A stretch of 57,600 bases of DNA. Source: Phycisphaerales bacterium. Its GTDB lineage: Bacteria; Planctomycetota; Phycisphaerae; SM23-33. The first letter of the stretch is position 1. Every line of letters begins with the position of its first letter. The notes below the pieces were generated by a model. It did not search any database. It was given only the letters and a program-made list of their open reading frames with translations, and was not told the origin of the DNA. The position numbers and the translations under genes were made by a program. The DNA is taken from contig JABGPZ010000063.1 in the NCBI GenBank assembly GCA_018644725.1, positions 1 through 57,600 of the forward strand. Reading direction: 5' to 3'. Below, piece after piece: positions 25,185 to 41,331 of the stretch.

Positions 25185-26318
25185 ATGCCTACAGGATCAA
25201 CAAACATTTTTGAGACCACGGTACGACACTTCCTCGCGCCGGTGATGGAGTTTCTTGAGGACCCTCGAGTGACCGAGGTGATGATCAACTCCGCGAGTGA
25301 TATTTATATTGAACGCGAAGGCAAGGTCATCAAGACCGACGCGCAATTTGAGGATGAAGATTCTCTTCGCGCCGCGATTAACAACGTGTTGCAGTATACC
25401 GGAAAGCGCATTCAGGAAGACCATCCGCTCGTCGATGCGCGTCTTCCCGACGGCAGCCGCGTCCACGTCGTTCTTCCGCCGCTGTGTCGCAACGGCAACT
25501 GTATGTCGATTCGAAAATTCTCGAAAGTCTCCCTCGACGCCCAGTTCCTGTTGGACTGCGGCAGCTGGACTCCCGAGGTGATGGACTATATTCGAATGAT
25601 GGTCCTCTCAGAAAAAAACATGCTCGTCGCAGGCGGAACCTCCAGCGGGAAAACCTGTCTGCTGAACGTCATCAGCGGGTTTATCCCCGAGGCGTCCCGC
25701 ATCGTGACGATTGAAGACTCCGCCGAACTGGAACTCCAGCAAACCCACGTCGTGACCCTCGAAGGGCGCGGGGCTGACCGCTGGGGCCGGGGCGAAGTGA
25801 CCATCCGCGAGCTGTTCCGCTCATCGCTGCGCCTGCGTCCCGACCGCATCGTCATCGGCGAAGTGCGCGGTGGGGAAGGCCTGGACATGATTCAGGCGAT
25901 GACCTCTGGCCACGCGGGCTCAATGAGTACGCTTCACGCCAACACCGCGCTGGACACGCTCAGCCGCCTGGAAACCATGGCGCTGATGAGCAAGGTTGAT
26001 ATTCCGCTTCACGCATTGCGCAGTCAGGTCGCCTCGGCGATTGACCTCGTCGTGCTGATGAATCGTCTTCCCGACGGCAACCGTGTGATCACGGAAGTCG
26101 CCGAAGTTTTGCCGCTCGACGAACACGGCCACTATCGCATCCAGCCCATGTTCCGCTATGAACTCTCCGACGGGGACGATGGCAAGCGCGTCGGGCGATT
26201 GGTGTGGTCGGGCTTGAAATCGACGTTCCGCGACGAATCCCGCGTCCAGATCCACCGCGACAGCTGGGGCCTGGCCGAACACATTTTCACCGAACCCTCC
26301 GAGACGGAGGCCAAATGA
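25185..26318 (+). CDS. Tad pilus assembly ATPase, CpaF-type (copy 1)
   Basis: The 377-residue secretion ATPase is of the TadA/CpaF kind. It would hydrolyse ATP at the inner membrane to drive pilin assembly. Walker A GGTSSGKT is at residues 150-157. The Asp/Glu box is [12 protein letters not shown], Walker B IVIGEVRGGEG, and the conserved HAG..STLHAN follows. The N-terminal domain is short and there is no FHA domain, unlike the second copy at 36060. After the ATPase core comes a C-terminal tail of about 60 residues with charged strands. AGGA lies just before the ATG. Its stop overlaps the next start (ATGA). Confidence 0.92.
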   Translation: MPTGSTNIFETTVRHFLAPVMEFLEDPRVTEVMINSASDIYIEREGKVIKTDAQFEDEDSLRAAINNVLQYTGKRIQEDHPLVDARLPDGSRVHVVLPPLCRNGNCMSIRKFSKVSLDAQFLLDCGSWTPEVMDYIRMMVLSEKNMLVAGGTSSGKTCLLNVISGFIPEASRIVTIEDSAELELQQTHVVTLEGRGADRWGRGEVTIRELFRSSLRLRPDRIVIGEVRGGEGLDMIQAMTSGHAGSMSTLHANTALDTLSRLETMALMSKVDIPLHALRSQVASAIDLVVLMNRLPDGNRVITEVAEVLPLDEHGHYRIQPMFRYELSDGDDGKRVGRLVWSGLKSTFRDESRVQIHRDSWGLAEHIFTEPSETEAK

Positions 26319-26482
26319 ACCAACCGATCCATCGTGATGAGCAGGGTGCTTCCAGCATTGAATATATCCTGTTGCTCGCGTTTTTCGGGGTTCCCATGAT
26401 CAGCATCGCGACACTCATTCTGAACCTGATCTCAGGACTCTATCATCAGATCACGTGTCTACATTCTCTTCTGCTTCCCTGA
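26315..26482 (+). CDS. Flp-type pilin (small)
   Basis: The 55-residue prepilin starts at ATG 26315, overlapping the ATPase stop. The leader ends in a class III prepilin site, Gly11|Ala12, with Glu16-Tyr17 (E+5, Y+6), followed by one hydrophobic helix (ILLLAFFGVPMISIATLIL). This is the pattern of Flp/Tad major or minor pilins. GGAGG (26306-26310) supports the start. The sequence after the helix is short and ends in SLLLP. Confidence 0.85.
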   Translation: MNQPIHRDEQGASSIEYILLLAFFGVPMISIATLILNLISGLYHQITCLHSLLLP

Positions 26483-26527
26483 TCGACCCAGGGCGCGAAG
26501 TACAACACAGGTCGAAAGGAGACTCTT

Positions 26528-26716
26528 ATGAAATCATTGTTGAAAAAGTTGCACAAGGACGAGCAAGGCGCAGACCTTCTCGAATACATCCTGATTCTTG
26601 CGCTGATCGCTCTGCCGGTCGTTGCTCTGGTGCTGTTCTTCAAGAGCGAAATCACCACGTGGTTCATGAACCTCTTCAATGACTACAAAGATTCCGGCAG
26701 CGACGGTGTCGAATAA
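26528..26716 (+). CDS. Flp-type pilin, likely major subunit
   Basis: The 62-residue prepilin has a strong ribosome binding site (AAAGGAG seven bases before the ATG), which suggests high expression. The leader MKSLLKKLHKDEQG is cut before ADLLEY (Gly14|Ala15, Glu19 at +5). A hydrophobic helix (ILILALIALPVVALVLFF) and a short acidic, Ser-rich C-terminus follow. It differs from the pilin upstream in leader and tail, so the two may be major and minor subunits. The prepilin peptidase gene follows after 15 bases. Confidence 0.9.
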   Translation: MKSLLKKLHKDEQGADLLEYILILALIALPVVALVLFFKSEITTWFMNLFNDYKDSGSDGVE

Positions 26717-26731
26717 CCGGATCGCTAACTG

Positions 26732-27340
26732 ATGCACTCGTTGTTCGAGACATTGGGTCCCGACGTGTGGTTTTATGCGATCCTTGCGGTGGTGCTTTGC
26801 ATCGCTGCGTGGACGGATCTCCGCACGGAAAAGATCTACAACTGGTTGACCTATCCGGCGATTCTTGTGGGCCTGTTGGGCCACACGGTCGTCGGAGGGT
26901 CGCCCGTGTTCTCTGGCGTGTCTGACCATGCTGGTGTAATGACCCTTTCCGATAGCCTGATGGGCTTGGCGATTGGGTTTTTACCGTTGTTTCTGGCGTG
27001 GCAGGCGGGCGGGATCGGCGGCGGCGACGCCAAGCTGATGGCCGCCGTGGGGGCACTGACCGGTTGGCGATTTGCGGTGACTGCAATATTCTATGGACTT
27101 GGGGTTGCGGTGCTGTACTCGCTTTGGGTGTTGCTGCATCAAAAAATGCTGCGCGACACGCTTGGGCGGGTGTTCCGCTTTATGTGGTTGGCACTGCTGA
27201 AAAATAACCCCGGCGATCCCGCCACGGACCAGAGTCCCAAGGTTGCCTTTGGGACCTGCATGTGCGTGGGGGCAGGCGTGGTTCTGCTGGTGATCCTGAT
27301 TTGGGGTCACAATGCAGAAATGCTCTGGGTGGGCGTATAG
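26732..27340 (+). CDS. prepilin peptidase (CpaA/TadV type)
   Basis: The 202-residue membrane protease belongs to family A24. The catalytic aspartates are Asp29 (WTDLRTEKIYNW) and Asp99 (GIGGGDAKL). About five hydrophobic helices surround them. The short form without the N-methyltransferase domain is typical of Tad systems. It would cleave the Flp and TadE-like leaders encoded around it. The gene follows the major pilin closely. Confidence 0.92.
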   Translation: MHSLFETLGPDVWFYAILAVVLCIAAWTDLRTEKIYNWLTYPAILVGLLGHTVVGGSPVFSGVSDHAGVMTLSDSLMGLAIGFLPLFLAWQAGGIGGGDAKLMAAVGALTGWRFAVTAIFYGLGVAVLYSLWVLLHQKMLRDTLGRVFRFMWLALLKNNPGDPATDQSPKVAFGTCMCVGAGVVLLVILIWGHNAEMLWVGV

Positions 27341-27368
27341 CAACGCCCGAGAGCAAGATGGAGGATCA

Positions 27369-28322
27369 ATGACACAATCGGCACAATCCAAACGAGCCGC
27401 ACACCGAGGACTGGTTGTCTTCGGGATGGTGTTGTCCATTCTCCTGATGCTGTGCGCTGCGCTGGTTTATCTCGGCGCGGGCGGGCCGGCCTCGCGAGGC
27501 ATGCGCCTTGACGGGCTGTTGGGTCATCGCGGATTTGTCCGTACGGCCTGCGTGTGCGCTGGCTGCATGATCCTGCTGAGCTTGATGGGCGTGTGGGTGG
27601 TGCGATTGTCGCGCCGAATCCGCGCCCAGCGCGGCGTGATGGACTCTCAGGGCGGAACGGTTTTGCTGGAGTTTGTGTTCGTGATGTCGTTTGTCTTGCC
27701 GCTGGCATCGTTGATGGTCCAGGCCTCGCTCTTGATGGGGGGCTATCTCAGCGTGAACTACGCAAGCTTTTGCGCGGCGCGTGCGGCGATCGTCTATATC
27801 CCCGTGGATTACAGCGACGAACGGCGCAATCTTCTCAACAGTTATGACCAACCGGGTGATTCGTTCAAGTGCTATCAGGTCTGGAACGCGGCGGTCTGGG
27901 CGGTCATGCCCGTTGGCGATGGCCACGAAGACCAAGCCGAATCGGACCGCACCGGAACGCTCCAGAGCGGGCTGGAAGACTTTTACGGCACCTATGGCCG
28001 AAGCGCGCCCAACTGGGTCTCGAGCCGAATCGGGCGCAAGCTGAACTACGCCGAAGAAAACACCTCCATTCGGATTGAACCCTCTCGCTCGGAAACCGGA
28101 CAATATGGCGAGCACGAGGACATTACAGTCTATCTGACTCACGACATGCTTCTCAATGTGCCCTATGCCGCGAAGCTCATGGCGCTGTTGGACGACACCA
28201 GCGAGAGCATCGGCAATGGCCGCTACACGATTCGTGTCGTGATCCCCACAACCTTACCCAATGAGGGAGCTGACGATCGCATTGACGTCGAAGAGTTCCC
28301 CGATGATGATGAAAACACATAA
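27369..28322 (+). CDS. TadE-like protein with two extra membrane helices
   Basis: The 317-residue protein starts at ATG 27369 with GGAGGA just upstream. Two hydrophobic helices come first (about residues 15-40 and 60-80). A TadE-like prepilin motif follows near residue 95: QGGTVLLEFVF, with Gly before the helix and Glu at +5. The C-terminal 200 residues form the outer domain. TadE is normally a single-helix pseudopilin, so the N-terminal two-helix part is a fusion. Whether the peptidase cuts at an internal site is open. Confidence 0.75.
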   Translation: MTQSAQSKRAAHRGLVVFGMVLSILLMLCAALVYLGAGGPASRGMRLDGLLGHRGFVRTACVCAGCMILLSLMGVWVVRLSRRIRAQRGVMDSQGGTVLLEFVFVMSFVLPLASLMVQASLLMGGYLSVNYASFCAARAAIVYIPVDYSDERRNLLNSYDQPGDSFKCYQVWNAAVWAVMPVGDGHEDQAESDRTGTLQSGLEDFYGTYGRSAPNWVSSRIGRKLNYAEENTSIRIEPSRSETGQYGEHEDITVYLTHDMLLNVPYAAKLMALLDDTSESIGNGRYTIRVVIPTTLPNEGADDRIDVEEFPDDDENT

Positions 28323-28361
28323 CCCACTCCCTGATGGAGTGTGGATGGAAAGAGAGTCATA

Positions 28362-31130
28362 ATGACGGAATCAACAAGCAATGGCGTTCCTGGAACCCTG
28401 ACTCCGGGTCAAACGGTTGGGAAATATGAAATTCGCGACCTGCTGGGCGCGGGCGGACAGTCCGTGGTGTATCGTGCGTGGGATTCCGCTCTTGAGCGGG
28501 AAGTCGCGCTCAAGCAGATGACGCCGAATCTCATCGCGGACCCCAAGTACGCCGACCAGATCCGCAAGACCATTCGCACGATCGCGACGCTCGGAGCAAA
28601 GAACGAAGTGGTCGTGACGATCTATGACCTGATCGAAGAAGAGCGGGGCATGTTCTATGCGATGGAGTATGTCGACGGGCATTCGCTGGAGCTGGTGCTC
28701 CATGACAATCCCGGGCCGGTCGAGGTCAAGGGTGTGCTTTTGATTCTCTTCCGTCTCGCGGCGGCCTTGCACGAAATTCACGGCGCGGGGATTATCCACC
28801 GCGACCTCAAGCCCAGCAACATCATGCTCGCCGAGGGCCTGCGTCCGAAGATCATCGATTTCGGCGTGGCCTCGATTGGCGAATCGGACGTGTCGATGCC
28901 GCTGGTGACGACGAAATATCTCGCGCCGGAACTCTATGAAGGCGGCGCGTGCGACTCGCGTGCGGACATCTATTCCCTCGGCTTTATCATCTATGAGATG
29001 CTGTTGGGGCGTGAAAAATTCAACGAGATTTTCCAGGACATCGTCCGCGACAAACACGCCGAAGCGTTGCGTTGGATGAAGTGGCATGGCAATGCAAAGG
29101 TCTCTGCGCCGCCCGCGCACGAAGTGGTGCCGACGGTCCCGCTCGCGCTAAGCCACATTGTTCAGCGGATGATTGAGAAGGACCCCGAGCAGCGCTTTGC
29201 GAGCACCGAAGAGCTTGGCCGGACGATCAAGCGCAGCTTCTCGGGCAAGAAACGTGGTGCCGGTGCGGTGGCGCCTGCTCCCGCACAAGCCCAGCGCAGT
29301 GCGATGATGGCGCGCCTTGCTGCCGAGCGCGGCCTGGGTCGTCTGGAAGACGAAGTCGACTACACACCTGCTGGCGTTGTTCCCGCCGGTGCCCAGGCCA
29401 TGGGCCCCGCGACCGCGCCCATGCCCAAAGAGCCGATGGGCAAGAAGAAAAAAATCGCCCTTGCCGTGGCCGCCAGCCTGATGTTCGTCGTATTCGCGGG
29501 CTTGGTAATCTATAAGGTCCAGCAGGACAAGCAGCGCCAAATCAGCCTTTCCCAAACCGCCCGAGGTGTTTTGACCAAGGGCTGCACCGCCTTGGAGACT
29601 GGAAAGTATACGGATTCCATTAAGCTCTTTACGACACTCTTGGAGAATCACAAAGGCACCATTGAAGCCAAGCATGCCGAGTACCTCAAGCCACTGGCGG
29701 AGGGGTATGTCGCTCATTCCAAGGGGGATTACACCCGCGCTCGCCAACTCAAGAAAGATGTCATTATCATCACCGAGCGTCTCGTGCCAACATTCCGGAA
29801 TGAAAATGACCGTAAATTTGTTTCCAAGTACATTGAATCTGCAGAAGCACTTTCGAAGCTGGCGGTTACGTCCGACCTGGCAGGCAAGGCCTTCGCCCGC
29901 GCGACCCAGAGCATCAAAGCCGCCACGACGGTCAGCGAACTGGGCCAGTGCGAGCAGCAACTGAAAAATGATTACAGGGATAGTTACAGTGGTGGTGCGC
30001 TCCCCACCAAGGTGGAAGATGATCGGTATCTGGAGCTATTGGATCAAATCAAGCGAGAGAAATGCCTTATCGAGCTCAAGAAGAAGTTCGCCGCTGCGCA
30101 GAAATGGGTCGATCAGGAAGCTTGGCCGGATGCGGAGTTGAGCTATCAGGCAGTGGAAGATTTCCTTGAAAGTGACGCGGCGAAGAGTCTCTCCCAAAAA
30201 GAACGCGACGAGAAGCTTCGCGTGGTGAACCAGAATCGAAAAACCATCGCCGCACGCATGGGCAAGCAGGAGGTTCTTGACCGGATCGAAAAAGCCGAGA
30301 TCAATGGAAATCCCCTGGAGATCAAAGCGGCCTATCGCGCTGCGACCAAGAGCGACAAATTCTCCACAGCGGAGAAGGCCCGCTACACTAAGGGAATCGC
30401 TAAGATCGACCTCGACGCGCTGATCGCTAAGGCCAAGGCCGCACTTGAGGCTGGCGATGCCAGCGCGCGCGACCTGTGCAAGGAAGTCCTGTTGAAGGAT
30501 CCGCAAAACACCATGGCCCTTGAGGCACTGGCGGGCATGGACCAGGCCAAGACAACCGAAGCTCTTCGCGGCGCCGCCAAGCGGGCCGTTCAGGATGGCA
30601 ACTATGCCGATGGGCTTGCGCTCTTGGAAAAACTGTCCCAGTATCGTCAGGATGACGAAGTGCGCACCCTGATGACCCAGTGCCGCTATGAATTGACGAT
30701 GGAGGAGGCTCGCCGTGCCATCCGGACCGGAAACACCGCCGGTGCGCTTCGCCTTCTCGGCGAGGCCGAACAGATCGACCCGACCAAGGCCGCCTTGGTG
30801 GGATCGATGCGCAACACGATTCAGTCCGAGAAGAAATATGCAGAACTGGTGATAGAGATCAAGGCCTCCATGAAAGCGGAAACCACCAAGCGCACCCTGG
30901 AGTTGATCGTCCGTGCCCGCCAGATCAGTGATACGCAGGAACTCACGGACTTTGAGAACCAAGCGAATTACAACGACAAGCTGGCGGCTGGGAAAAAGGC
31001 TCTCAACGAGGGCAACCGGGACACCGCCCGCTGGTATTTCAAGCTGGCCCAGCGTTACATGGACACCAAAGAGATCCAGGGCCTCATTGATCAAGTCAAG
31101 CCCATCACCGAACCCGCAGCCACAGAATAG
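28362..31130 (+). CDS. transmembrane Ser/Thr protein kinase with TPR-like outer domain
   Basis: The 922-residue protein has a complete Hanks-type kinase domain (about residues 20-295): Gly loop LGAGGQSVVY, Lys51 (VALKQM), catalytic HRDLKPSN (146-153), DFG (166-168), a possible activation-loop Thr pair (183-184) and APE (188-190). A flexible Pro/Ala linker leads to one membrane helix (365-386, IALAVAASLMFVVFAGLVIY). The last 530 residues are helical, with TPR-like units (LTKGCTALETGKYTDSIKLF, ARRAIRTGNTAGALRLLGEA) and would lie outside the membrane. The kinase sits in the middle of the Tad operon, between two pilus genes. Likely targets are the Thr-binding FHA proteins encoded nearby or their ligands (inference). 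The start is ATG 28362; the ribosome binding site is weak (GGAAAGAGAG). Confidence 0.92.
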   Translation: MTESTSNGVPGTLTPGQTVGKYEIRDLLGAGGQSVVYRAWDSALEREVALKQMTPNLIADPKYADQIRKTIRTIATLGAKNEVVVTIYDLIEEERGMFYAMEYVDGHSLELVLHDNPGPVEVKGVLLILFRLAAALHEIHGAGIIHRDLKPSNIMLAEGLRPKIIDFGVASIGESDVSMPLVTTKYLAPELYEGGACDSRADIYSLGFIIYEMLLGREKFNEIFQDIVRDKHAEALRWMKWHGNAKVSAPPAHEVVPTVPLALSHIVQRMIEKDPEQRFASTEELGRTIKRSFSGKKRGAGAVAPAPAQAQRSAMMARLAAERGLGRLEDEVDYTPAGVVPAGAQAMGPATAPMPKEPMGKKKKIALAVAASLMFVVFAGLVIYKVQQDKQRQISLSQTARGVLTKGCTALETGKYTDSIKLFTTLLENHKGTIEAKHAEYLKPLAEGYVAHSKGDYTRARQLKKDVIIITERLVPTFRNENDRKFVSKYIESAEALSKLAVTSDLAGKAFARATQSIKAATTVSELGQCEQQLKNDYRDSYSGGALPTKVEDDRYLELLDQIKREKCLIELKKKFAAAQKWVDQEAWPDAELSYQAVEDFLESDAAKSLSQKERDEKLRVVNQNRKTIAARMGKQEVLDRIEKAEINGNPLEIKAAYRAATKSDKFSTAEKARYTKGIAKIDLDALIAKAKAALEAGDASARDLCKEVLLKDPQNTMALEALAGMDQAKTTEALRGAAKRAVQDGNYADGLALLEKLSQYRQDDEVRTLMTQCRYELTMEEARRAIRTGNTAGALRLLGEAEQIDPTKAALVGSMRNTIQSEKKYAELVIEIKASMKAETTKRTLELIVRARQISDTQELTDFENQANYNDKLAAGKKALNEGNRDTARWYFKLAQRYMDTKEIQGLIDQVKPITEPAATE

Positions 31131-31138
31131 GGGTCGCC

Positions 31139-33925
31139 ATGATCCGCCCGAACACATATCGACGAACCGCGCGCCGCTCGGGCGCGGTGCTGCTGATTCT
31201 CATCATCTGCATGTCCTTGCTGATGGGGTTGGTGTTCTTTGTGTTCAATATGGGCGACCAGGTCAATCGCCGCGTGGAAACCCAGTCCGCCGCCGACGCT
31301 GTGGCGATCAGTGGCAGTGGCTGGATGGCGCGCAGCATGAACATTGTCGCGATGAGCAACGTGACGATTCCGCGTCTGATTTCGCTGGCATGTGTGATGG
31401 ATACCTTGCCGGTTGCCGCCGAGATGACCATCGCGGAAATGACCAACCAGCGCAAACTTGTCGAGGCACTCGATCCGTATCAAGATCCCGGCACGCAAGG
31501 CTTTACGCTCTATGAAAAGGATAATTTCTATCGGTTGGGGATTGCCGAAATCTGGCGCGAACTCAACGAGGAGGCCGCGCTGACGACGCAACTGGAACTG
31601 CTGGAAGAGATCGACGCCACGTTCGATCAGATCAATGAAGTGTCCACCGAGGGCGTGTATGACGTTGCCCTCAGTACCGAGTGGGAAGGGCCCAACGGGC
31701 GCGGCTGGATTTGGCGTGCGATTGTCGCGCTGGACGAATTTTCCCGCGTGACGGCCGACATGGCGCCGTTGCTCAGCCAGGACGACGCCAGCCGCATCGG
31801 CGAGGCCAACCACATGAACGTCGCGTTCATCGTGCCGGTCTACCCGAGCTTCCCCGGAAAGATGGGCAAGTTTTCCGATTTCGCGTTTGTCCTCGAAAAT
31901 CGTCTGCGCTATGGCAGAGATCGCAATACCAGGACGCGGATTTGCGAAACGCGCGATTCGAATACCTACAACACGTTCATGAATTCGTCCGACACCGCTC
32001 AGTCCGCTCGCTATCATCGCGTTCGCGGCGGGGCGATTCCCGACTGGGCCGACGCGCATCGCCTTGGCCCGTTCGCGCGGCTGTATCGATGGCGCGATTA
32101 CTGGGACCAATACGAGTACACCGGCGGCTCGCGCCTGTTTGAAGAGCGCTGGGGCTATACGACCTATGGCCCGTTTGAACGGATGCTGCGCACCACGACC
32201 AACGGCTTCGGCAATGCGGGGTGGTGGTGGCACTGGAACCATCACTGGGGCGGCGGCGACGGGATTTTGGACCTCACGCGCTTCATGTTCCACCTTTGCT
32301 CGATTTCGCAGATCAAACTCGGCTATGTGTTGGGTGTGGACAAGACGGTCATGGCCCAGTACGCCGACCAGTGGATCACCGATTATGAAGAAGCCCGCCG
32401 CTATGTCGAGGGCGACAAGCACAACCGCTCTGGCACGAGTAACAACTCGGGCGTGATGGTGACGCGGTGGTATCGTGTTGCGGTGAAATCGACGTTCGAC
32501 CCGACCGTGATGACCGTGGAACTGGGCGAGTATGCCGGCGATGACGTCTATCCGGCGGTGACCTATCCGATGCACACCCTCGGTGGGTGGGACAACTGGA
32601 TGGACCCGGGCTCGTGGGACTCTGGCGCGGCCGAATTGCAGTTCGTCCCGCGCCGATGGTTCAGCTGGCAACTCAGTGGACACGGGCCCTATGACAATCC
32701 CAAGAAGCAACCGCTGCACCGGTGGATTTACGAACAGAGGGGGTGGAACCCCATCAGCGACGACCGTACCACGCCGGCGCAATTCGACATGAGCGGGACG
32801 ATCAATACTGACGGCGATCCTCCGCAAAATCAGAATATCAGCCTTCGCATGAAGCGCACCACCAGCCGCACGGTCAAGACGTTGCTGGAAGACCCTGCCG
32901 CAGACAACCCCGCGACGCCGGAACTCGAGCCGGTGGTCCAGCCCAAGATTATCACCGTGACGCTCCGCGCCGAAGAAGATGGCGAAGGGGAGACGGGCAT
33001 TGTAACCCTCACGCGCCAGGCCAACAACGAGGACTGGCTGATCGACGCCAACGGCCCCCAGGCCATGCGCCCGGACACGTCATACACTTCGCTCATCAAC
33101 GAAGAGGGCGTGACCTATTCACTGACCCTCACGGGCGCAAAGGTTTATAGCCCCGATTCAAGTGCGCCGTACCGCGTGCGATTTATTGTCAGCTTCCGCA
33201 AGGTGGGCGATACGATCCAAATCCGCGTCCGCCCCGAAAAGCGCCTCGAACCCGTCGACGGTGCAACCTCGCCATGGGGCAAGTGGGTCTCGCTCGACGG
33301 CAGCGGCAACGCCTGGTTCAAACGCCGCAAGGGCAAGACGACGCACGATGCCGAACTGGGCCTGCCGCAGATTCAGATTGGCGTGACCGAAGACGGAGAA
33401 CCGATCTACAAGCAGTACAGAACGTTCCACTATGAGTGGCGTATCTTCGGCGGGATTGAACTGCGCAACGAATTCCCGGTTTCGAATCTGATCGCCGGTG
33501 GCCAAGACAGCCTGCCCGCGCCGATCTTGATCGACTATGAAAACTATGGCGATTATGATCCGCAGGACCCCAACGGCGACGAAGGATTGCGCCGGAAAAA
33601 CTTCAGCTTCCTCGGCATCGCCCGCCGCAATGCCCAAGCGCCGGTATGGCGCCAGCAATTCCCCGAGTCCAACCCCTCGGGCTACATCACAGCCATCGCC
33701 CAGGCCGAGTTGTTCAACAACAAGAGCTGGGACCTCTGGACGCAGGATTGGCAGGTCCGCCTCGTTCCGGTGACCGACTATCCCGAATGGTGCGAGCGGT
33801 TGAGCGCGGGCAAGGCCGATGCCTACGAAGTCGAAACGGTAATCACGCCCGAACAGCTCGAGGCGGCCGAAGAATATCTCTACAGCATGAATCAAGCCCT
33901 GGTTGACGCCTTTTTGGCCCATTGA
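31139..33925 (+). CDS. TadG-like large pilus-associated protein
   Basis: The 928-residue protein starts eight bases after the kinase stop. A basic N-terminus (RRTARRSGA) precedes one hydrophobic helix (VLLILIICMSLLMGLVFFVF) of the TadE/TadG prepilin type, though without Glu at +5. Then comes NMGDQVNRRVETQSAADAVA, the hallmark start of TadG-like proteins. The large outer region is rich in Trp, Tyr and Asp and includes likely beta-sandwich segments (about residues 600-740). It may be the pilus tip or an adhesin. It is larger than most TadG proteins, which are around 400-600 residues. Confidence 0.82.
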   Translation: MIRPNTYRRTARRSGAVLLILIICMSLLMGLVFFVFNMGDQVNRRVETQSAADAVAISGSGWMARSMNIVAMSNVTIPRLISLACVMDTLPVAAEMTIAEMTNQRKLVEALDPYQDPGTQGFTLYEKDNFYRLGIAEIWRELNEEAALTTQLELLEEIDATFDQINEVSTEGVYDVALSTEWEGPNGRGWIWRAIVALDEFSRVTADMAPLLSQDDASRIGEANHMNVAFIVPVYPSFPGKMGKFSDFAFVLENRLRYGRDRNTRTRICETRDSNTYNTFMNSSDTAQSARYHRVRGGAIPDWADAHRLGPFARLYRWRDYWDQYEYTGGSRLFEERWGYTTYGPFERMLRTTTNGFGNAGWWWHWNHHWGGGDGILDLTRFMFHLCSISQIKLGYVLGVDKTVMAQYADQWITDYEEARRYVEGDKHNRSGTSNNSGVMVTRWYRVAVKSTFDPTVMTVELGEYAGDDVYPAVTYPMHTLGGWDNWMDPGSWDSGAAELQFVPRRWFSWQLSGHGPYDNPKKQPLHRWIYEQRGWNPISDDRTTPAQFDMSGTINTDGDPPQNQNISLRMKRTTSRTVKTLLEDPAADNPATPELEPVVQPKIITVTLRAEEDGEGETGIVTLTRQANNEDWLIDANGPQAMRPDTSYTSLINEEGVTYSLTLTGAKVYSPDSSAPYRVRFIVSFRKVGDTIQIRVRPEKRLEPVDGATSPWGKWVSLDGSGNAWFKRRKGKTTHDAELGLPQIQIGVTEDGEPIYKQYRTFHYEWRIFGGIELRNEFPVSNLIAGGQDSLPAPILIDYENYGDYDPQDPNGDEGLRRKNFSFLGIARRNAQAPVWRQQFPESNPSGYITAIAQAELFNNKSWDLWTQDWQVRLVPVTDYPEWCERLSAGKADAYEVETVITPEQLEAAEEYLYSMNQALVDAFLAH

Positions 33926-33936
33926 TGGGAGGCACC

Positions 33937-34686
33937 ATGAGAACAACCTATCGACATAATCGACGCGGTGTGGCCTTGCTGGAGTTTGTCTTCTGCTTGC
34001 CATTTTTCCTGCTGATTATCGCGGGGACGTTCATGTTCGGCACGATGATGCGCAACGAGCAGCGTCTGCGCGTGACCGACCGCTATGTGTCGTGGCGCGT
34101 GTCGCACAACAGCGACGCGGGCGTGGATGCCAGCAATCTAGGGGCTGTGAAGTGGGGCGAGCCCAATGAGGGGACCGAGCGTCAAAACTTCATCGACGAG
34201 TATCTGCGGGTCAACAAGGTGACGTTGACGGGGAAACTTCTCAACGAATCGTTCTACGAAAAGCGCGCGAATGAGCCGGCGGTCAAATGGACCCACTCCA
34301 GCCGCACCGGCCCGCGCGAACCCTACGAAGAACTCATTGCCGGCGCGCAAGAGGCCAGCGAGGATACCGGGCGCCTTGCCGAAGAGGCCATGGGCGGTTG
34401 GTCGTATGTGTCTGATGCGCGCGTCTCGGCGACGTTCCCGCGCGAAAACTCACTGGCCGAGACCGTCGAGCAGCACATCACCCGCGATCCCAATGCCGAA
34501 ACGGGCATGACCGACCATGCTCGCCGTCGACACATTCGCTCGAGCGTCCAATGGCGGCGCGGGCAGAATTCGTATCTCGAACCCATCCGGAAACACTTTC
34601 TCGCCGAGTTGGATGACGTCATCCAGGCGATGCAAAATGACCAGCTGCGGAAGAATCTCAGCGATTTGTACATGAATCGATGGTAG
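33937..34686 (+). CDS. TadE-like pseudopilin
   Basis: The 249-residue protein starts at ATG 33937, four bases after GGAGG; an in-frame TTG upstream overlaps that site. The motif RRGVALLEFVFCLPF is a prepilin site (Gly followed by helix, Glu at +5). One helix anchors a soluble, charged domain of about 210 residues. It is the standard single-helix TadE form, unlike the one at 27369. Its last codons overlap a possible start of the next gene. Confidence 0.82.
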   Translation: MRTTYRHNRRGVALLEFVFCLPFFLLIIAGTFMFGTMMRNEQRLRVTDRYVSWRVSHNSDAGVDASNLGAVKWGEPNEGTERQNFIDEYLRVNKVTLTGKLLNESFYEKRANEPAVKWTHSSRTGPREPYEELIAGAQEASEDTGRLAEEAMGGWSYVSDARVSATFPRENSLAETVEQHITRDPNAETGMTDHARRRHIRSSVQWRRGQNSYLEPIRKHFLAELDDVIQAMQNDQLRKNLSDLYMNRW

Positions 34687-35252
34687 CAACTATGCCCGAG
34701 GATACACCGAAGCGATCTCGCCGTTGGACCAATGTGGTGCTGTGGCTGGCGGCGGCAGGGAGCCTGGCGTTTGCCTTCTGGCAGATGTGTGCTTATATGG
34801 ATTCTCGGGGCGCTGACCCTGTGCGACGACTTCCCGACGGGATTCTCGTCGCTCCGGCCGAGGACGATCAGTTCAAGGCGATCAAACTCGCGCTGTTATT
34901 GGTTCCCGATGCGCCGCCCATTGCACCGCCCGAAACGGCGACCCCCACGGGGGCCTGGATGTTGAATCAGGTCAAGAAGGGGCGTGTCGATTTGCATTGG
35001 GGCTTTGATGTGAAGGCGGAGAGGTCCGCGATTGAGGCATATTTTCAATCGGCCTTGACTCGTCTGGGGTATTGCCTCGCCAAGAAATCGGAAGGGAAAT
35101 TTTTCGGCCCGATGGAAGTTTGGCGAAAAAACGAGAACATCATCATCATTTCCTTGCGAAATGAACCGGAAAACGCGAGAATACGACTGATCATTCGACA
35201 GATTCGCCCGGTTGAACCGGCGGACTACAAACGGACATTTTCAAAGCGATAG
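34680..35252 (+). CDS. hypothetical membrane-anchored protein in Tad locus
   Basis: I do not recognise this protein of about 190 residues. Either ATG 34680, overlapping the TadE stop (ATGGTAG), or ATG 34692 could be the start; neither has a clear ribosome binding site, so coupling to the upstream gene is likely. A basic N-terminus precedes one helix (VVLWLAAAGSLAFAFWQM), then an outer domain of about 140 residues with alternating hydrophobic strands (VDLHWGFDVK, IIIISLRNEP, IRLIIRQI). By its place it may be a small assembly factor or pilotin-like part of the Tad machine. Confidence 0.6.
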   Translation: MVATMPEDTPKRSRRWTNVVLWLAAAGSLAFAFWQMCAYMDSRGADPVRRLPDGILVAPAEDDQFKAIKLALLLVPDAPPIAPPETATPTGAWMLNQVKKGRVDLHWGFDVKAERSAIEAYFQSALTRLGYCLAKKSEGKFFGPMEVWRKNENIIIISLRNEPENARIRLIIRQIRPVEPADYKRTFSKR

Positions 35253-35261
35253 GAGCTTTTC

Positions 35262-36041
35262 ATGGCTGAGAAATCAAAAGGCGTTCAAAACCTCTGGCTG
35301 CTTGCCATTGCGATTGTGCTGGGCATGTTGGCGGTTGTGATTTACAACGTCCACATTTCTGCGATTCGCAACGAGAACAAGCAGAAACGGATTGAAGTGA
35401 TTAAGGTCACCAAGGCCCTGAAAATCGGCGCGAATCTCAAAGACAACATCATGGAGAGAGCGATCATCTATACCGATGACGAGGGTGCGGCGGACCATTA
35501 TGTCGCTCATGATCGCCGTCCTGCGCTTATCTCTGGAAAGGGCCAAACGGTCTACTTGCCCATCCAAAAGGGTGAGTTTCTCATGGAGCATCATATTACG
35601 TCTCGCCAATCTGGTGGGGCGGCGAGCGCGATCTCCCCGGATTTGCCGACGAATACGATTAACATCGACGATTCGCCGGGCCAATTGCTCGAGCCGGGCG
35701 GCTTTGTCAATATCAAAGGGCTGTTCCAGATCAAGGAAACCGGCCGGTATGAAACGGTTCGCATCCTGGAGAACATTCGCGTCGTCGGTGTGGGGGGCAA
35801 GCGCCTCGAAGCCAGCACGATGGCTGCGGCACGCAACGCCGGACGCGCCATGACCAATTTTCGGACCATCACCGTGGAGCTTCCGCCGGAGCTGTCTCTC
35901 CAACTGGATAACCTCAAGACGCACTGTATCGGAAACTTTACGGTCGAAGTGTTGGCCCAACCCAAAGAGAATGCCAAAAAGCCTTCGGTGAATCACAAGC
36001 TGAAATCGATGGCGCTCTCGGCCAAGCCTCCCTCACGTTAA
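35262..36041 (+). CDS. cpaB: CpaB/RcpC-like pilus assembly protein
   Basis: The 259-residue protein starts with TAGGAG seven bases upstream of the ATG. It has one N-terminal helix (LWLLAIAIVLGMLAVVIY). A SAF-like module is followed by a CpaB core with DSPGQLLEPGGFVNIKGLF and TITVELPPELSLQL, both typical of CpaB (similar to VTVEVSPEEA-type strings of the family). CpaB sits in the periplasm and links the inner-membrane machine to the secretin; no secretin gene is in this window. It is next to the second ATPase, as in many Tad loci. Confidence 0.82.
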   Translation: MAEKSKGVQNLWLLAIAIVLGMLAVVIYNVHISAIRNENKQKRIEVIKVTKALKIGANLKDNIMERAIIYTDDEGAADHYVAHDRRPALISGKGQTVYLPIQKGEFLMEHHITSRQSGGAASAISPDLPTNTINIDDSPGQLLEPGGFVNIKGLFQIKETGRYETVRILENIRVVGVGGKRLEASTMAAARNAGRAMTNFRTITVELPPELSLQLDNLKTHCIGNFTVEVLAQPKENAKKPSVNHKLKSMALSAKPPSR

Positions 36042-36059
36042 TTCCCACAGGAGATCGAA

Positions 36060-37937
36060 GTGGAAATCTGGATTTGCAATCAATACAACGACGAGCGGAT
36101 CACGCAGAAGGTTCCCGACGAGCGCGTCCTGATCGGGCGCGACGAGTCGTGCGATGTGACTCTGCGGTCGGGATTCGTCTCGCGACAGCACGCCAAAATC
36201 GTCTTCGAGCACGGTAGCTTTTTCATCGAACCCCTCGCAGTGAGCGGGCTGACGGTCGCCAACACCATGCTCTCGATGCACGAGCGGCACAAGTTGGAAT
36301 ACGGTGACGAAATTCGCATCGGTGAGTTCAGCCTCTATATGATGCAGCCGTCGCAGAAGCGGATCGAGGCCGTCGAGCAGGCGACCTCGCCGCGCAAACG
36401 CGTCGTCGCGCTCGAAGAAAAAATGCACGCCGAGCTGCTCGACAATCTCAACCTGCGCGTGACGGGCCAGGAAAGCGTCAGTGATTCCAAGCTCGTGTCG
36501 ATGATCAAGTCCAGCCTCGACGCGATCATTGAAGCACACCTTGGCGAGGTAGACCGCGAAATGCGCGAATATCTCATGGCCGAGTATCTCTGGCGGACAA
36601 TCATCACCGAGCTCAACCGCCGCGCAACGGGCAAGCTGATGTACAGTTATGCCTTTGAGGACACCGGGCATCTCGATCAGAAAAAAGAAGAAACGCTCAG
36701 CCGCATGGTCAGCGATGTCCTCGGCGCGTACCCGCTTCGCATGCGCCTCCACACGCTCAAAGAAGACGTCTCGATGATCGAGGACGACTGGGACAATCAG
36801 CTGCGGATTATGAAAACCCGCATCACTCCCGAGCTTCACGGATACATCGTCCGGCGGATGATCAGCAAGGAAATCGAAGATGTCGTTCTCGGCTATGGCC
36901 CGTTGCAGGACCTGCTGGAAATGCCGAACGTGAACGAAATTATGGTCGTCTCGCGCGACCGGATCTACATCGAAAAAGATGGCGTGCTGCAAAACACCGG
37001 CCGAAGCTTTTTCTCCGACAAGATCGTCGAAAGCATCATCGAGCGCATCATCACGCCCGTCGGCCGCCGGATTGACCGCTCGACGCCGCTGGTCGATGCG
37101 CGCCTGCCAGACGGCAGCCGTGTCAACGCGATTATTCACCCGCTGGCAGTCTCCGGGCCGACGCTGACGATTCGAAAATTTGCGCGCATTCCCTTCACCA
37201 TTGACGACCTCGTTGAACGCGGAACTCTTACGCGCCAATCGGCCAACTTCCTGCGCGCGTGCAGCCTCGGGCGGAAAAACCTGCTGATCTCCGGTGGTAC
37301 GGGCAGCGGGAAAACCACGACGCTGAATGTGTTGAGCAACTTTATTCCCGAAGAAGAACGTATCGTCACGATCGAAGACTCGGCTGAACTTCAGCTCCAT
37401 CAAGAACACCAGGTGCGCCTGGAAACGCGCCCGGCGAACATCGAAGGCAAAGGGGCGTACACGATCCGCGACCTGGTGAAAAACGCACTGCGTATGCGGC
37501 CCGACCGCGTGATTGTCGGCGAATGTCGCGGCCCGGAAGCACTGGACATGCTCCAGGCGATGAACACCGGCCATGACGGTTCGCTCAGCACGATTCACGC
37601 CAACAATCCCGACGACACGATGCTTCGCCTTGAGACGATGGTGCTCATGGCGGTGGACATGCCCGTCAAGGCGATTCGCGAACAGATTTCCGCCGCCATC
37701 GACGTCGTAGTTCAAATTGCGCGTCTTTCGACAGGACGCCGCTGCATCACCCACATCAGCGAAGTCATCGGGATCGACCCCGACACGGGCAAAGTGCTCA
37801 CTGAAGACATTTATCGCCTCAAGAAGGTCCGCGGCGAATTTGATGCCGAAGGAGATCTCATTCATACCGGCTACATTCCGGAGTTTTCCGAAGAGCTTAT
37901 CCATAAGAAGTTTATGGGAGTGGAGGTGTTCACTTGA
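36060..37937 (+). CDS. cpaF: FHA domain fused to CpaF-type Tad ATPase (copy 2)
   Basis: The 625-residue protein starts with GTG 36060, seven bases after AGGAG. Residues 1-95 are an FHA domain with the phosphothreonine-binding residues in place: GRDES (Arg27), SRQHAKI (Ser41, Arg42, His44) and a following Asn. A linker and the CpaF N-terminal helical domain come next (about 120-330). The ATPase core has Walker A GGTGSGKT (412-419), [19 protein letters not shown], Walker [15 protein letters not shown] (about 485-495) and STIHANNP. The fusion places a phosphopeptide reader on the pilus motor itself. It overlaps the TadB start by four bases. Confidence 0.93.
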
Positions 37938-38812
37938 TCGCATCCACATCCATTTTAGTAGCGATGGCCCGTCAGCAGGTTATCGGCAGCGGGTCGATTT
38001 TCTTTCTGATTCTGGCGGCGGTGTTGGTGGGGGCTCGACCGTTGCGCGAATTGATTCGCGTCAAAGAGGTCGAGTGGGATTTCACCCTTCGCTATCGCTT
38101 ACTGCAGAAAAACACAGGCCGCAGCGTCACGGTGATGACCGGGCTTTTGATGGTCTTCTTTGGGGGCATTGCGTTGGCACTGACCCGCGGAAGCCTCTTG
38201 GCGATGTTCATCGGCGCGTCGGTGGCGGTGTTCATTCCGAACTGGTATGTCAATCGCAAATCGATCAAGCGCCGCGAAGAACTCGAATCGCAACTCGTCC
38301 AGGGCGTTCAGATGCTCGCGTCGAGTGTGCGTGCGGGGCTGAATCTCGTCCAGGCGATGCGGACGGTTTCGATTGACGCGCCCGCGCCGCTGCGCGAAGA
38401 ATTTTCCCACATGGTCAGCGAGTACGAATATGGCATGCCGCTTCCCCAGGCGATGGATAATGCGGCCGAGCGGATCGGATCGAGCGATTTCCGTTTGCTG
38501 TTCACCGCGCTCCAGACCCACCGCGAACGTGGCGGGGACCTTGGGGAGACCCTCGACCGGATTGCCGCGAGTATTCGCGAGATCCAGCGCCTTGAAGCGC
38601 GGATCGATTCGCTGACTGCCCAAGGCCGCGCGATGGCGCGTTGGCTGAGCGCGATGCCGGCCGTGGTCATGGGCATCCTCTATCTGATCGACGCAGAAGG
38701 GACCGCGAGGCTCTTTTCTGACGCGATGGGCAACGTGATCCTTCTGTTCGTGGTGATCCTGAATGTCATCGGCTACATTTGGATTCGCAAGATTATGACA
38801 ATTGATATCTAG
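37934..38812 (+). CDS. tadB: Tad platform protein TadB
   Basis: The 292-residue inner-membrane protein has a T2SSF domain. Recognisable parts are QGVQMLASSVRAGLNLVQAM, EEFSHMVSEYEYGMPL, ALQTHRERGGDLGETLDRI and SLTAQGRAMARWLSAMP, all TadB-like. The start is TTG 37934, supported by GGAGG (37922-37926) seven bases upstream; it overlaps the cpaF stop (TTGA). A later in-frame ATG (37964) has no site. Two helices near the N-terminus and two near the C-terminus flank the cytoplasmic domain. Confidence 0.9.
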   Translation: MIASTSILVAMARQQVIGSGSIFFLILAAVLVGARPLRELIRVKEVEWDFTLRYRLLQKNTGRSVTVMTGLLMVFFGGIALALTRGSLLAMFIGASVAVFIPNWYVNRKSIKRREELESQLVQGVQMLASSVRAGLNLVQAMRTVSIDAPAPLREEFSHMVSEYEYGMPLPQAMDNAAERIGSSDFRLLFTALQTHRERGGDLGETLDRIAASIREIQRLEARIDSLTAQGRAMARWLSAMPAVVMGILYLIDAEGTARLFSDAMGNVILLFVVILNVIGYIWIRKIMTIDI

Positions 38813-38838
38813 GCATTGAACGAGAATACGGAGAGACA

Positions 38839-39801
38839 ATGACAGCACTGCTGAACATCCTGGCTGTGACAAACTATGCCGACCCGTGGGTGACGTGGGT
38901 CTCCAGTGGAATGATTTTCACGGTGGTCTTTCTCGTGATTCTCGCCGTCTTTGGCGAACGTGGCGAGGTCCACCTTTCTCCTCAGCGCCAGGCCGCGATT
39001 TTCGCCGGCCACGCCGACCGCAAGACCTTGTTCGAGAATTCCATCGTCGCCCCAATTCTCTGGCTGTGTTTGACGATTGCGACTTCGCTGAACATGCCGC
39101 GCGCCAAAGAATCGTTGCGGAAGACATTGGTATCGGCAGGGAGCCCGAACTTCTTCACGCCCGAAGAATATATCGCGCTGTCGCTGTTCCACGGATTTAC
39201 GGCTGGGGTGCTTTTGAACCTGTTTGCGGCTGTGATGACGGGCTCGTTCAGCATGTTGATCTTCCTGATCGGCGTGGTGATCGGCACGGGGATATCGGTC
39301 TATTCGATTGGCGAACAGGCCACCGTCCGCCTGCGGAGCATCACGCGCCAGATGCCTTATTCGCTCGACCTGATTTCGCTCGCGATGGGCTCGGGCGCGA
39401 CGTTCACCGAAGCCATTGGTGCCGTCGTGCGCGATGCGTCGATGGACACCGACCAGGCCGCCGCGCTGAATACCGAATTCCGTGCGCTGATGTCGGAAAT
39501 GGACCTCGGGCACACCCGCCGCGAAGCGCTCGAAAACCTTGCCCGCCGCGTTCCGCTTTCCTCGGTCCAGGCGATTGTCGCCTCGATCATGCAGGCCGAA
39601 GAGCTGGGCACGCCGCTGGCGGATGTCCTCCACGACCAGGCCACGACGTTGCGTCTGGAACGGTCGGTCCGCGCGGAAAACCTTGCGGCCTCGGCCTCGA
39701 TGAAAATTCTGATCCCGTGTCTTCTTCTGGCGGTGGCTGTGATCCTCACCGTCTTTGGCCCGTCGATCATCAGCATTGCACGAAATGGATTGTTTGGATA
39801 G
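38839..39801 (+). CDS. tadC: Tad platform protein TadC
   Basis: The 320-residue protein is the second T2SSF platform protein. Key segments are RQMPYSLDLISLAMGSGATF, GAVVRDAS, EFRALMSEMDLGHTRREAL and SIMQAEELGTPLADVL, as in TadC. Four helices are predicted: one at the N-terminus, two in the middle and one at the end (ILIPCLLLAVAVILTVF). GGAGAG lies before the ATG. It would form the inner-membrane platform with TadB. Confidence 0.9.
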   Translation: MTALLNILAVTNYADPWVTWVSSGMIFTVVFLVILAVFGERGEVHLSPQRQAAIFAGHADRKTLFENSIVAPILWLCLTIATSLNMPRAKESLRKTLVSAGSPNFFTPEEYIALSLFHGFTAGVLLNLFAAVMTGSFSMLIFLIGVVIGTGISVYSIGEQATVRLRSITRQMPYSLDLISLAMGSGATFTEAIGAVVRDASMDTDQAAALNTEFRALMSEMDLGHTRREALENLARRVPLSSVQAIVASIMQAEELGTPLADVLHDQATTLRLERSVRAENLAASASMKILIPCLLLAVAVILTVFGPSIISIARNGLFG

Positions 39802-39815
39802 GAGATTGATCCGCT

Positions 39816-40928
39816 ATGACTTCAGCACGCCCCGAACTAATTTTTGTCCAAGGTCCTCAGGAAAACCATCGCGTTGTCCTGATGAACAATATTTGCATCG
39901 CCGGGCGAAGCCCCCAGGTCGATGTGGTGATCCGCGAAGAGTTTGTCTCGCGCAATCAGCTTCAGTTTATCTTTACGCATGATGGCTGGATTGTTGAGAA
40001 CCTTGTCAAGGCCCGCAAGATGGAGATCAACGACAAGGTCTACAAGGCCGGCAAGAAGATTCTTCTCGACAGTGGCGATGTGATCAAGATCGGGATGGAG
40101 ACCAAGCTTCTGTTTGTCTCTCCTGAGGACGACCCGGCCGAGGTCCTGATGGCCTATCGCGGCGCGCACCCCACGGCCGTTCCCGTTGAGGCTCCGGCCG
40201 ATGCTCCCGCCCCCACGCCCGTCACAAAACCCGCCAAGCCCTACATCGATCTCGACGCACAGCCGACCGAGTTCATCGAAATTCCCACCGAGCAAACCTC
40301 CGAGACCAAGCCCGAGAAAGAGCTGACCGAGCACGATCAGGCGGCTGCGGCGGCCTCGCGCAAGAAAAAGCTCTACATGATTCTCGGTGGGGCGTGGGTA
40401 GGGATCATTCTCGTCATCGCACTGGCCCTTTCGACGGTGACCAAAAACGGCCCCGCCAAAACTGGGGGACTGAGCGAATGGCCGGCGGAGAAAATTCGCG
40501 CCGCATTCTCCAGCAAGCTGGAAACCTCCCACAAACCCGGTCAGGATCAGATCGAAATTGAGCGTGCAGATTCCCTCTTTGCCATTCGTGGATCCCAGCG
40601 CCAGAACTATTACAAGACCCTGTGTCACTATCGCGCGGCGATGGCCCACCGTGTCGGCCAGGCCGTCCCGCTTCCCTCGCGCCAGGAGCAGCGCTATCGC
40701 ACCGTCCTTCAGGAGCTCACCGACATCATCACCGAGGAATACAAGACGATGATCCAGCGGGAGCGCAACAAGTCCTGGCTGGATGCCAAGTACTCCGCGA
40801 ATCTGATTCTGATGGACTACATCCCGCGTAAGACGGTTTTGGAATTCCGCGATGAGGAGGTCGATAAATTCATCTCGAACATATTCAAACACCTGAATCG
40901 CATTTCAACGAAAATCGGTCCAAAGTAA
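39816..40928 (+). CDS. membrane protein with N-terminal FHA domain
   Basis: The 370-residue protein has an FHA-like domain at residues 1-105 (IAGRSPQVDVVIREEFVSRN). In the binding loop the usual His of SxxH is Gln (Ser45-Arg46-Asn47-Gln48), so binding may be altered. A Pro/Ala/Thr/Glu linker (about 110-180) precedes one membrane helix (about 187-207, ILGGAWVGIILVIALAL). The outer part (about 160 residues) is helical and charged (RNKSWLDAKYSANLILMDY). It is the last gene of the Tad run and ends near the csrA terminator. It could be a membrane partner of the kinase. Confidence 0.85.
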   Translation: MTSARPELIFVQGPQENHRVVLMNNICIAGRSPQVDVVIREEFVSRNQLQFIFTHDGWIVENLVKARKMEINDKVYKAGKKILLDSGDVIKIGMETKLLFVSPEDDPAEVLMAYRGAHPTAVPVEAPADAPAPTPVTKPAKPYIDLDAQPTEFIEIPTEQTSETKPEKELTEHDQAAAAASRKKKLYMILGGAWVGIILVIALALSTVTKNGPAKTGGLSEWPAEKIRAAFSSKLETSHKPGQDQIEIERADSLFAIRGSQRQNYYKTLCHYRAAMAHRVGQAVPLPSRQEQRYRTVLQELTDIITEEYKTMIQRERNKSWLDAKYSANLILMDYIPRKTVLEFRDEEVDKFISNIFKHLNRISTKIGPK

Positions 40929-40997: not shown

Positions 40998-41177
40998 TTA
41001 TCCGTCGGATTGTTGTTCGCGTTGAATCGCCTCGTAGACCTCTTTTCGGTGTACGGGGATATGGGCAGGGGCTGTGATCCCCAAGCGAACCTTTTCACCA
41101 CGAATATCAACGACGGTGATTTGTACATCATCGCCGATCATAATCGTCTCATCACGTTGTCGAGAAAGTACCAGCAT
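40998..41177 (-). CDS. csrA: carbon storage regulator CsrA
   Basis: The 59-residue RNA-binding regulator begins MLVLSRQRDETIMIGDD, with the conserved GEKVRLGI and PAHIPVHRKEVY. Dimers bind GGA motifs in mRNA leaders and change translation or stability. ATG 41177 has GGAG six bases upstream. The gene is convergent with the Tad locus. Its own leader contains GGA in the ribosome binding site, so self-repression is possible. CsrA often controls motility and surface attachment. Confidence 0.95.
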   Translation of the reverse strand: MLVLSRQRDETIMIGDDVQITVVDIRGEKVRLGITAPAHIPVHRKEVYEAIQREQQSDG

Positions 41178-41331
41178 AAGATCTCCTTCCATGGAGGCCG
41201 ACTTGTTTGCAGCGCGCCTGACCTTTGTTTCCTTGTCCCAGCAAAGATTTTATCGGCCATGGAAGTCGAGAGAGTTTAGAGCAAATCATTTTTTTTCTGG
41301 ATAATCTTCGCTGGATTCGTAGGATAGGGGC

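Follow-up and report, generated by a model that had tools for sequence, protein, structure and literature searches.

In the 57,600-nucleotide stretch of Phycisphaerales DNA analyzed here (the window), positions 25185-40928 hold a Tad pilus locus in which a transmembrane Hanks-type Ser/Thr kinase is encoded among the pilus genes, together with two proteins bearing FHA domains, one of which is the CpaF-type motor. The kinase, the FHA-tagged CpaF and the FHA membrane protein form one inherited module with a conserved gene order, and the kinase carries a conserved threonine motif next to its membrane helix. On balance, we think it probable that the locus specifies a Tad pilus with a built-in threonine-phosphorylation switch, in which the kinase would phosphorylate its own T351 and an FHA domain would dock there.

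Co-inheritance of the kinase with the FHA-tagged motor

Open reading frames and Pfam-type profile searches delimit 25185-40928 as an unbroken series of 14 plus-strand genes, overlapping or separated by short gaps, in the order cpaF, two flp pilins, tadV, a TadE-like gene, the kinase, a TadG-like gene, tadE, a small unknown gene, cpaB, FHA-cpaF, tadB, tadC and the gene of the FHA membrane protein. A preliminary description of this DNA had recognized a Tad locus of 13 genes; every part it named stands, coordinates included, and the count rises to 14 because the run contains two pilins and one small protein of unassigned function. The source genome, a 2.5 Mb draft in 112 contigs, has no more than four clear kinases and three FHA proteins, which makes the presence of a kinase and two FHA proteins in one Tad locus noteworthy. 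Given this scarcity and the conservation of the arrangement across the order, the kinase is no chance neighbor of the pilus genes.

The loci of relatives were mapped with the window's own proteins; here, order and class refer to those of the source genome, while L and G numbers designate loci and genomes. Matches to FHA-CpaF at E 1e-60 or better occur in 37 of 38 order genomes, 32 of them at full length. The kinase gene directly follows the TadE-like gene (tadEa) in all 20 order loci that span the pilin end to FHA-CpaF, including three with no tadG recognized after the kinase (L048, L050 and L064), and it occupies the equivalent slot in other families of the class (L071-L075, L244-L253, L255). 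Gene order in relatives had been proposed as a check on the association, with Tad genes never found beside the kinase or FHA genes counting against it; the comparison reveals that the kinase, FHA-CpaF and the FHA membrane protein travel together.

Similarly tight co-inheritance is seen across whole genomes. When matches to the kinase subfamily (at least 280 bits) were compared with the FHA-CpaF search over 150 class genomes, each was present in 39: 38 genomes have both, two have a single partner and 110 have neither (Fisher's p 3e-33, taken only as a sign of very tight co-inheritance because the genomes are not independent). Both single cases are fragmented drafts, namely G344, which is 87% complete, and G367, which is 74% complete and whose contig stops after tadE. 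Within the 110 genomes are 53 that have only other CpaF-type ATPases, and none of these contains the kinase subfamily.

A second arrangement, found outside the class and, as an additional locus, in G108 and G207, places a different, more distant kinase directly after tadC and its following gene, which encodes an FHA protein in five of six cases (L077/L100, L078/L098, L081/L097, L086, L087 and L088). A kinase lies in or beside nine (strict count) or 11 (loose count) of 23 such FHA-CpaF loci, six of them of this downstream type, and in or beside none of 19 Tad loci whose CpaF lacks an FHA domain (Fisher p 0.002 or 0.0003, respectively, uncorrected for kinship). About half of the FHA-CpaF loci outside the class are thus without a nearby kinase, and none is listed for a Moraxella plasmid locus with FHA-CpaF.

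These loci vary further in their makeup. The downstream-type kinase of L100 (1452-4703) has external immunoglobulin-like repeats and an FGE-sulfatase domain, with TVALP 13 residues ahead of its membrane helix. Five FHA-CpaF Tad loci (L101-L103, L105 and L109) have two large FHA proteins of about 370-730 amino acids after tadC, with no kinase found nearby, so that any kinase of theirs would lie elsewhere, and paired adjacent kinase genes stand beside FHA-CpaF Tad loci in G112 and G058 (L104 1-2511 and L110 17245-19001).

The distribution also bears on whether the kinase serves the pilus at all. It could be a general envelope-stress kinase merely sitting in a Tad operon, its co-inheritance reflecting operon transfer rather than function, since operons can be inherited as blocks and membrane kinases that combine Pkinase with outer TPR domains are common in Planctomycetota (PMC11032199). 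We regard this explanation as very improbable, however, because no kinase accompanies a Tad ATPase without FHA, either in the 53 class genomes or at the 19 loci, because the second arrangement exists with a different kinase, and because both partners were retained where the locus was split (G017 and G259).

The kinase and its juxtamembrane threonine

The kinase gene (28362..31130; this and the following locus coordinates are on the plus strand) starts at ATG 28362, preceded by the ribosome-binding-like stretch GGAAAGAGAG, and encodes 922 amino acids (Pkinase 9e-43) of a subfamily with orthologues in relatives. A complete membrane kinase had been read at these positions, and its catalytic residues are indeed intact (G-loop, K51, HRD 146-148, DFG 166-168 and APE 188-190). 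Its Hanks motifs, single transmembrane helix and external domain point to a PknB-type membrane Ser/Thr kinase. The catalytic domain (28413..29252) is PknB-like and displays an RWMKWH signature in its C-lobe, lying in invariant alignment columns. Its identity to order relatives is 40-66%, as opposed to just 15-24% for the ectodomain.

The outer helical domain suggested previously was recovered as a TPR solenoid, predicted to be extracytoplasmic (29520..31127). AlphaFold models it as an all-helical rod with a mean predicted local distance difference test (pLDDT) score of 93.1 and a predicted template-modeling score of 0.55, and profile comparison links it to TPR proteins (to 3e-25). A Foldseek search with the ectodomain returned only TPR superhelices at low template-modeling scores and no specific relative. 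In the same model, residues 297-361 are disordered (linker pLDDT <50), and the membrane helix and the first ectodomain helix form one continuous helix, 362-412. Planctomycetota kinases with TPR domains outside the membrane have been described before; what is new is not this architecture but its occurrence in a Tad locus.

Other assignments of this kinase were set aside. It scores 210.8 bits against the NCBIfam cut-off of 450 bits for the PASTA kinase (PknB/StkP) equivalog and has a TPR ectodomain, not PASTA repeats. Matches to the PADLOC defense models PD-T4-6 and mad6 reflect generic kinase-domain similarity, and a defense role was dismissed given the Tad linkage. A scan of named genomes with the kinase alignment yielded, among the matches listed, generic HRD-pattern kinases at most 38% identical and no orthologues, a result that is uninformative on absence.

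The disordered juxtamembrane linker contains the motif TAPMPK (29412..29429), whose threonine is T351, a candidate phosphothreonine docking site. In the full-kinase alignment, T351 and P355 are invariant and A352 is nearly so, while the rest of the linker cannot be aligned. For the first 30 kinases, T-x-x-[LIVM]-P is present in all 30 and T-A-x-[LIVM]-P in 28, at exactly 13 residues from the linker end in the order or 10 in other class families; shuffled linkers of these kinases contained the motif 2.1 times on average and eight times at most, versus 30 observed. In an enlarged set of Tad-embedded kinases, at a near-fixed distance of about 10-13 residues ahead of the membrane, T..[LIVM]P is present in 42 of 43 and T..[LIVM] in all 43, the exception being TAPLT in L252, and the +3 residue is Leu, Ile or Val, with Met once. 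As controls, the motif occurs in two of 22 membrane kinases without Tad linkage from order genomes and in none of the six closest non-Tad relatives, which come from class family f89 and whose genomes, at the threshold used, have only CpaF without FHA. A conserved threonine in a disordered linker with an aliphatic +3 residue fits the FHA ligand pattern, which suggests a docking site.

The f89 non-Tad kinases themselves are 870-900 amino acids long, and four of the six (L257, L258, L260 and L261) are encoded about 5-8 kb from a divergent 600-amino-acid secretion ATPase; they are possibly tied to a type IVa pilus or a type II secretion system.

The two FHA modules of the preliminary description were found at 36126-36323 (7e-14), in the N-terminal part of the CpaF motor (36060..37937; T2SSE 3e-62), and at 39897-40094 (3e-08), in the protein with one transmembrane helix encoded by the conserved last gene of the locus (39816..40928). 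Among 29 FHA-CpaF sequences, the Gly, Arg (R27), Ser (S41) and Arg contacts of GR and SR are invariant, H44 is kept in 27 and Asn at 62 in 28. With its GR, SRxH and N contacts thus present at the family level, the domain is a putative phosphothreonine reader, and its N-terminal position on CpaF corresponds to class III CpaF. The membrane FHA protein has the Arg and Ser in 24 of 24 sequences and the His in just 13. A phmmer search of the FHA domain against the PDB gave no match. The FHA domain of either CpaF or the membrane protein could read T351, and we favor neither. The earlier proposal that the FHA-tagged motor reads a product of the kinase agrees with the conserved contacts in CpaF, while the TadG and TadE tails, its suggested targets, give way to the T351 motif as the best candidate docking site.

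These sequences also allow two other assignments of roles. The kinase might recruit the membrane FHA protein only, leaving the FHA domain of CpaF to bind something unrelated to it. That protein, too, is anchored near the inner membrane, its Arg and Ser contacts are universal, and FHA-CpaF occurs without a listed kinase in Moraxella, with none named for the Kil system of Myxococcus (PMC8460266). We judge this quite unlikely, given that the kinase and FHA-CpaF are almost perfectly co-inherited class-wide and that roughly every second membrane FHA protein has lost the His position.

Alternatively, the kinase would belong to the Tad system, but the FHA-read substrate would be CpaB, the TadB/C loops, CpaF itself or an unlinked protein, and the motif would activate the kinase or bind a non-FHA partner. 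There is precedent in the type VI secretion system (T6SS), where PpkA phosphorylates TssL rather than docking through its own linker (PMC3953482), and most downstream-type kinases next to FHA-CpaF are without the motif, so another phosphothreonine must serve them. The linkers of FHA-CpaF and of the FHA membrane protein, however, have no threonine conserved equally well, for which reason the latter linker was also rejected as the phosphosite, and the motif, which follows the pattern of an FHA ligand, does not occur in the nearest non-Tad kinases. We therefore hold an alternative substrate to be unlikely.

The proposed switch and its relation to known systems

In the built-in switch that we propose, the kinase would span the inner membrane once, with its TPR rod running on from the membrane helix without a break in the helix, and the rod may sense the state of the pilus machine or of the envelope. 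In Caulobacter, piliation is accompanied by a movement of CpaF toward the inner membrane and by a change in periplasmic width (PMC13170226), so that either the state of the machine or the spacing of the envelope might be what is sensed. The kinase, presumably active judging from its intact motifs, would then phosphorylate the threonine of T-A-x-[LIV]-P a few residues inside the membrane, and the FHA domain of the CpaF motor or of the membrane protein would land on the phosphothreonine. Docking could recruit the motor to the platform or release it, altering pilus extension or retraction, and may act in either direction, activating or inhibiting extension. The phosphorylation of T351, the identity of its binder and the on/off direction are proposed here from the motif and domain sequences. 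A more specific version, in which the membrane-proximal phosphothreonine of a dedicated receptor kinase recruits the FHA-tagged motor as a docking-platform switch that evolved with FHA-CpaF and was kept through the class, we put forward only tentatively.

Several observations weigh against this proposal. Five of the six downstream-type kinases lack the motif, which indicates that not every FHA-Tad system would use this docking site. The +3 preference of FHA domains is a useful yet disputed rule (PMC4037201). In the window itself, the conserved Asn of the CpaF FHA domain is replaced by Ser (S62), a substitution seen in none of the other 28 of 29 sequences, and the kinase motif alone has Met at +3, where the others have Leu, Ile or Val; the two changes may be coupled or may reflect weaker binding. 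A search of the genome with PF13672/PP2C_2, the only phosphatase family covered, found no PP2C phosphatase. Linkage is broken in G259, where the kinase lies about 70 kb from its FHA-CpaF although co-occurrence is kept, and in G017 the locus falls on two contigs, the kinase being on the one that has the pilin end.

FHA-tagged CpaF proteins are already known, as KilF (PMC8460266) and as class III CpaF (PMC12019362). The Tad-like Kil apparatus of Myxococcus xanthus resembles the present locus in its ATPase KilF with an N-terminal FHA domain and in the further FHA proteins of its cluster; the source names no kinase (PMC8460266), whereas here one is embedded and co-inherited with FHA-CpaF. Class III CpaF shares the fusion of FHA in front of the motor but, according to its description, comes mainly from Betaproteobacteria and has no kinase assigned to it (PMC12019362). 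In the open literature, subscription papers not covered, we found no report of a Tad-embedded kinase or of its docking site.

Comparable signaling is known from other machines. For instance, in the Agrobacterium T6SS, Fha recognizes pThr14 of TssL once PpkA has acted, so that a machine-encoded membrane kinase and an FHA reader license the machine, as might occur here (PMC3953482). That machine is a different one, however, its kinase targets TssL and a phosphatase, PppA, is encoded; the present locus contains Tad and not T6SS genes, with no PP2C_2 match in the genome, and its identification as a PpkA-Fha-PppA pathway was rejected. The phosphorylated juxtamembrane segment of PknB binds FhaA, as cited in PMC12077195, and the PknB-FhaA and StkP systems share with this kinase a PknB-like catalytic domain and a juxtamembrane linker that is phosphorylatable there and putatively so here; they differ in having a PASTA ectodomain and a cell-wall role instead of a TPR ectodomain and a pilus locus. 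In archaea, the FHA protein ArnA and ArnB likewise connect FHA and kinase signaling with a type IV filament, the archaellum, but their effect is on expression, and their genes never lie in pilus or archaellum loci (PMC4858521).

For the FHA-tagged Tad motor, the locus offers both a kinase inherited along with it and, in T351, a single well-defined candidate site, where the accounts of FHA-CpaF consulted name no matching kinase or ligand. The question of who phosphorylates what for this motor is thereby reducible to a peptide-binding experiment. If correct, the proposal would describe a post-translational on/off switch for Tad pili, parallel to T6SS licensing, in lineages whose contact with surfaces or prey through pili has hardly been studied.

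Remaining components of the locus and its surroundings

The locus encodes the Tad/Flp core components, namely a CpaF/TadA ATPase, TadB and TadC, Flp pilin, an A24 peptidase and CpaB. The run opens with a CpaF-type ATPase without an FHA domain (25185..26318; T2SSE 6e-59), whose stop is overlapped by the first Flp pilin (26315..26482; MNQPIHRDEQGASSIEYILLL), with homologues at the equivalent place in relatives. The second pilin (26528..26716; EQGADLLEYILILALIALPVVAL), also with homologues in relatives, is followed by the TadV/CpaA prepilin peptidase (26732..27340; Peptidase_A24 3e-18) and a TadE-like pseudopilin (27312..28322), which has no Pfam match but is a conserved gene, always upstream of the kinase. 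After the kinase come the TadG-like protein (31139..33925; Tad PF13400 4e-05, above cut-off), TadE (33922..34686; PF07811 3e-05, above cut-off), a small membrane protein of no assigned function that is kept in only some relatives (34680..35252) and CpaB/RcpC (35262..36041; TIGR03177 2e-12, below its cut-off, and RcpC 5e-04). The platform proteins TadB (37934..38812; T2SSF 9e-21) and TadC (38839..39801; T2SSF 5e-14) lie between the two FHA proteins.

The secretin (RcpA/CpaC) is not encoded in the Tad locus. On contig C67, a gene for a 650-amino-acid secretin precedes one for a TPR protein, and this pair is likely to represent RcpA and TadD of the Tad system. Its presence weakens the idea, which we had considered, that the kinase ectodomain replaces the TadD pilotin. 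The locus contains no TadZ/CpaE, and no clear one emerged from an AAA_31 search, which gave one strong ParA-like match elsewhere and otherwise weak ones; as a speculation, kinase-FHA docking could possibly take over the motor-positioning role of CpaE.

Just past the last gene of the Tad locus, a convergent csrA-like gene (MLVLSRQRDETIMIGDDVQITVVDIRGEKVRLGITAPAHIPVHRKEVYEAI) lies on the minus strand at 40998-41192 of the window, and a DNA methylase gene (N6_N4_Mtase 5e-58) is located upstream of the locus at 22339-23394, also on the minus strand.

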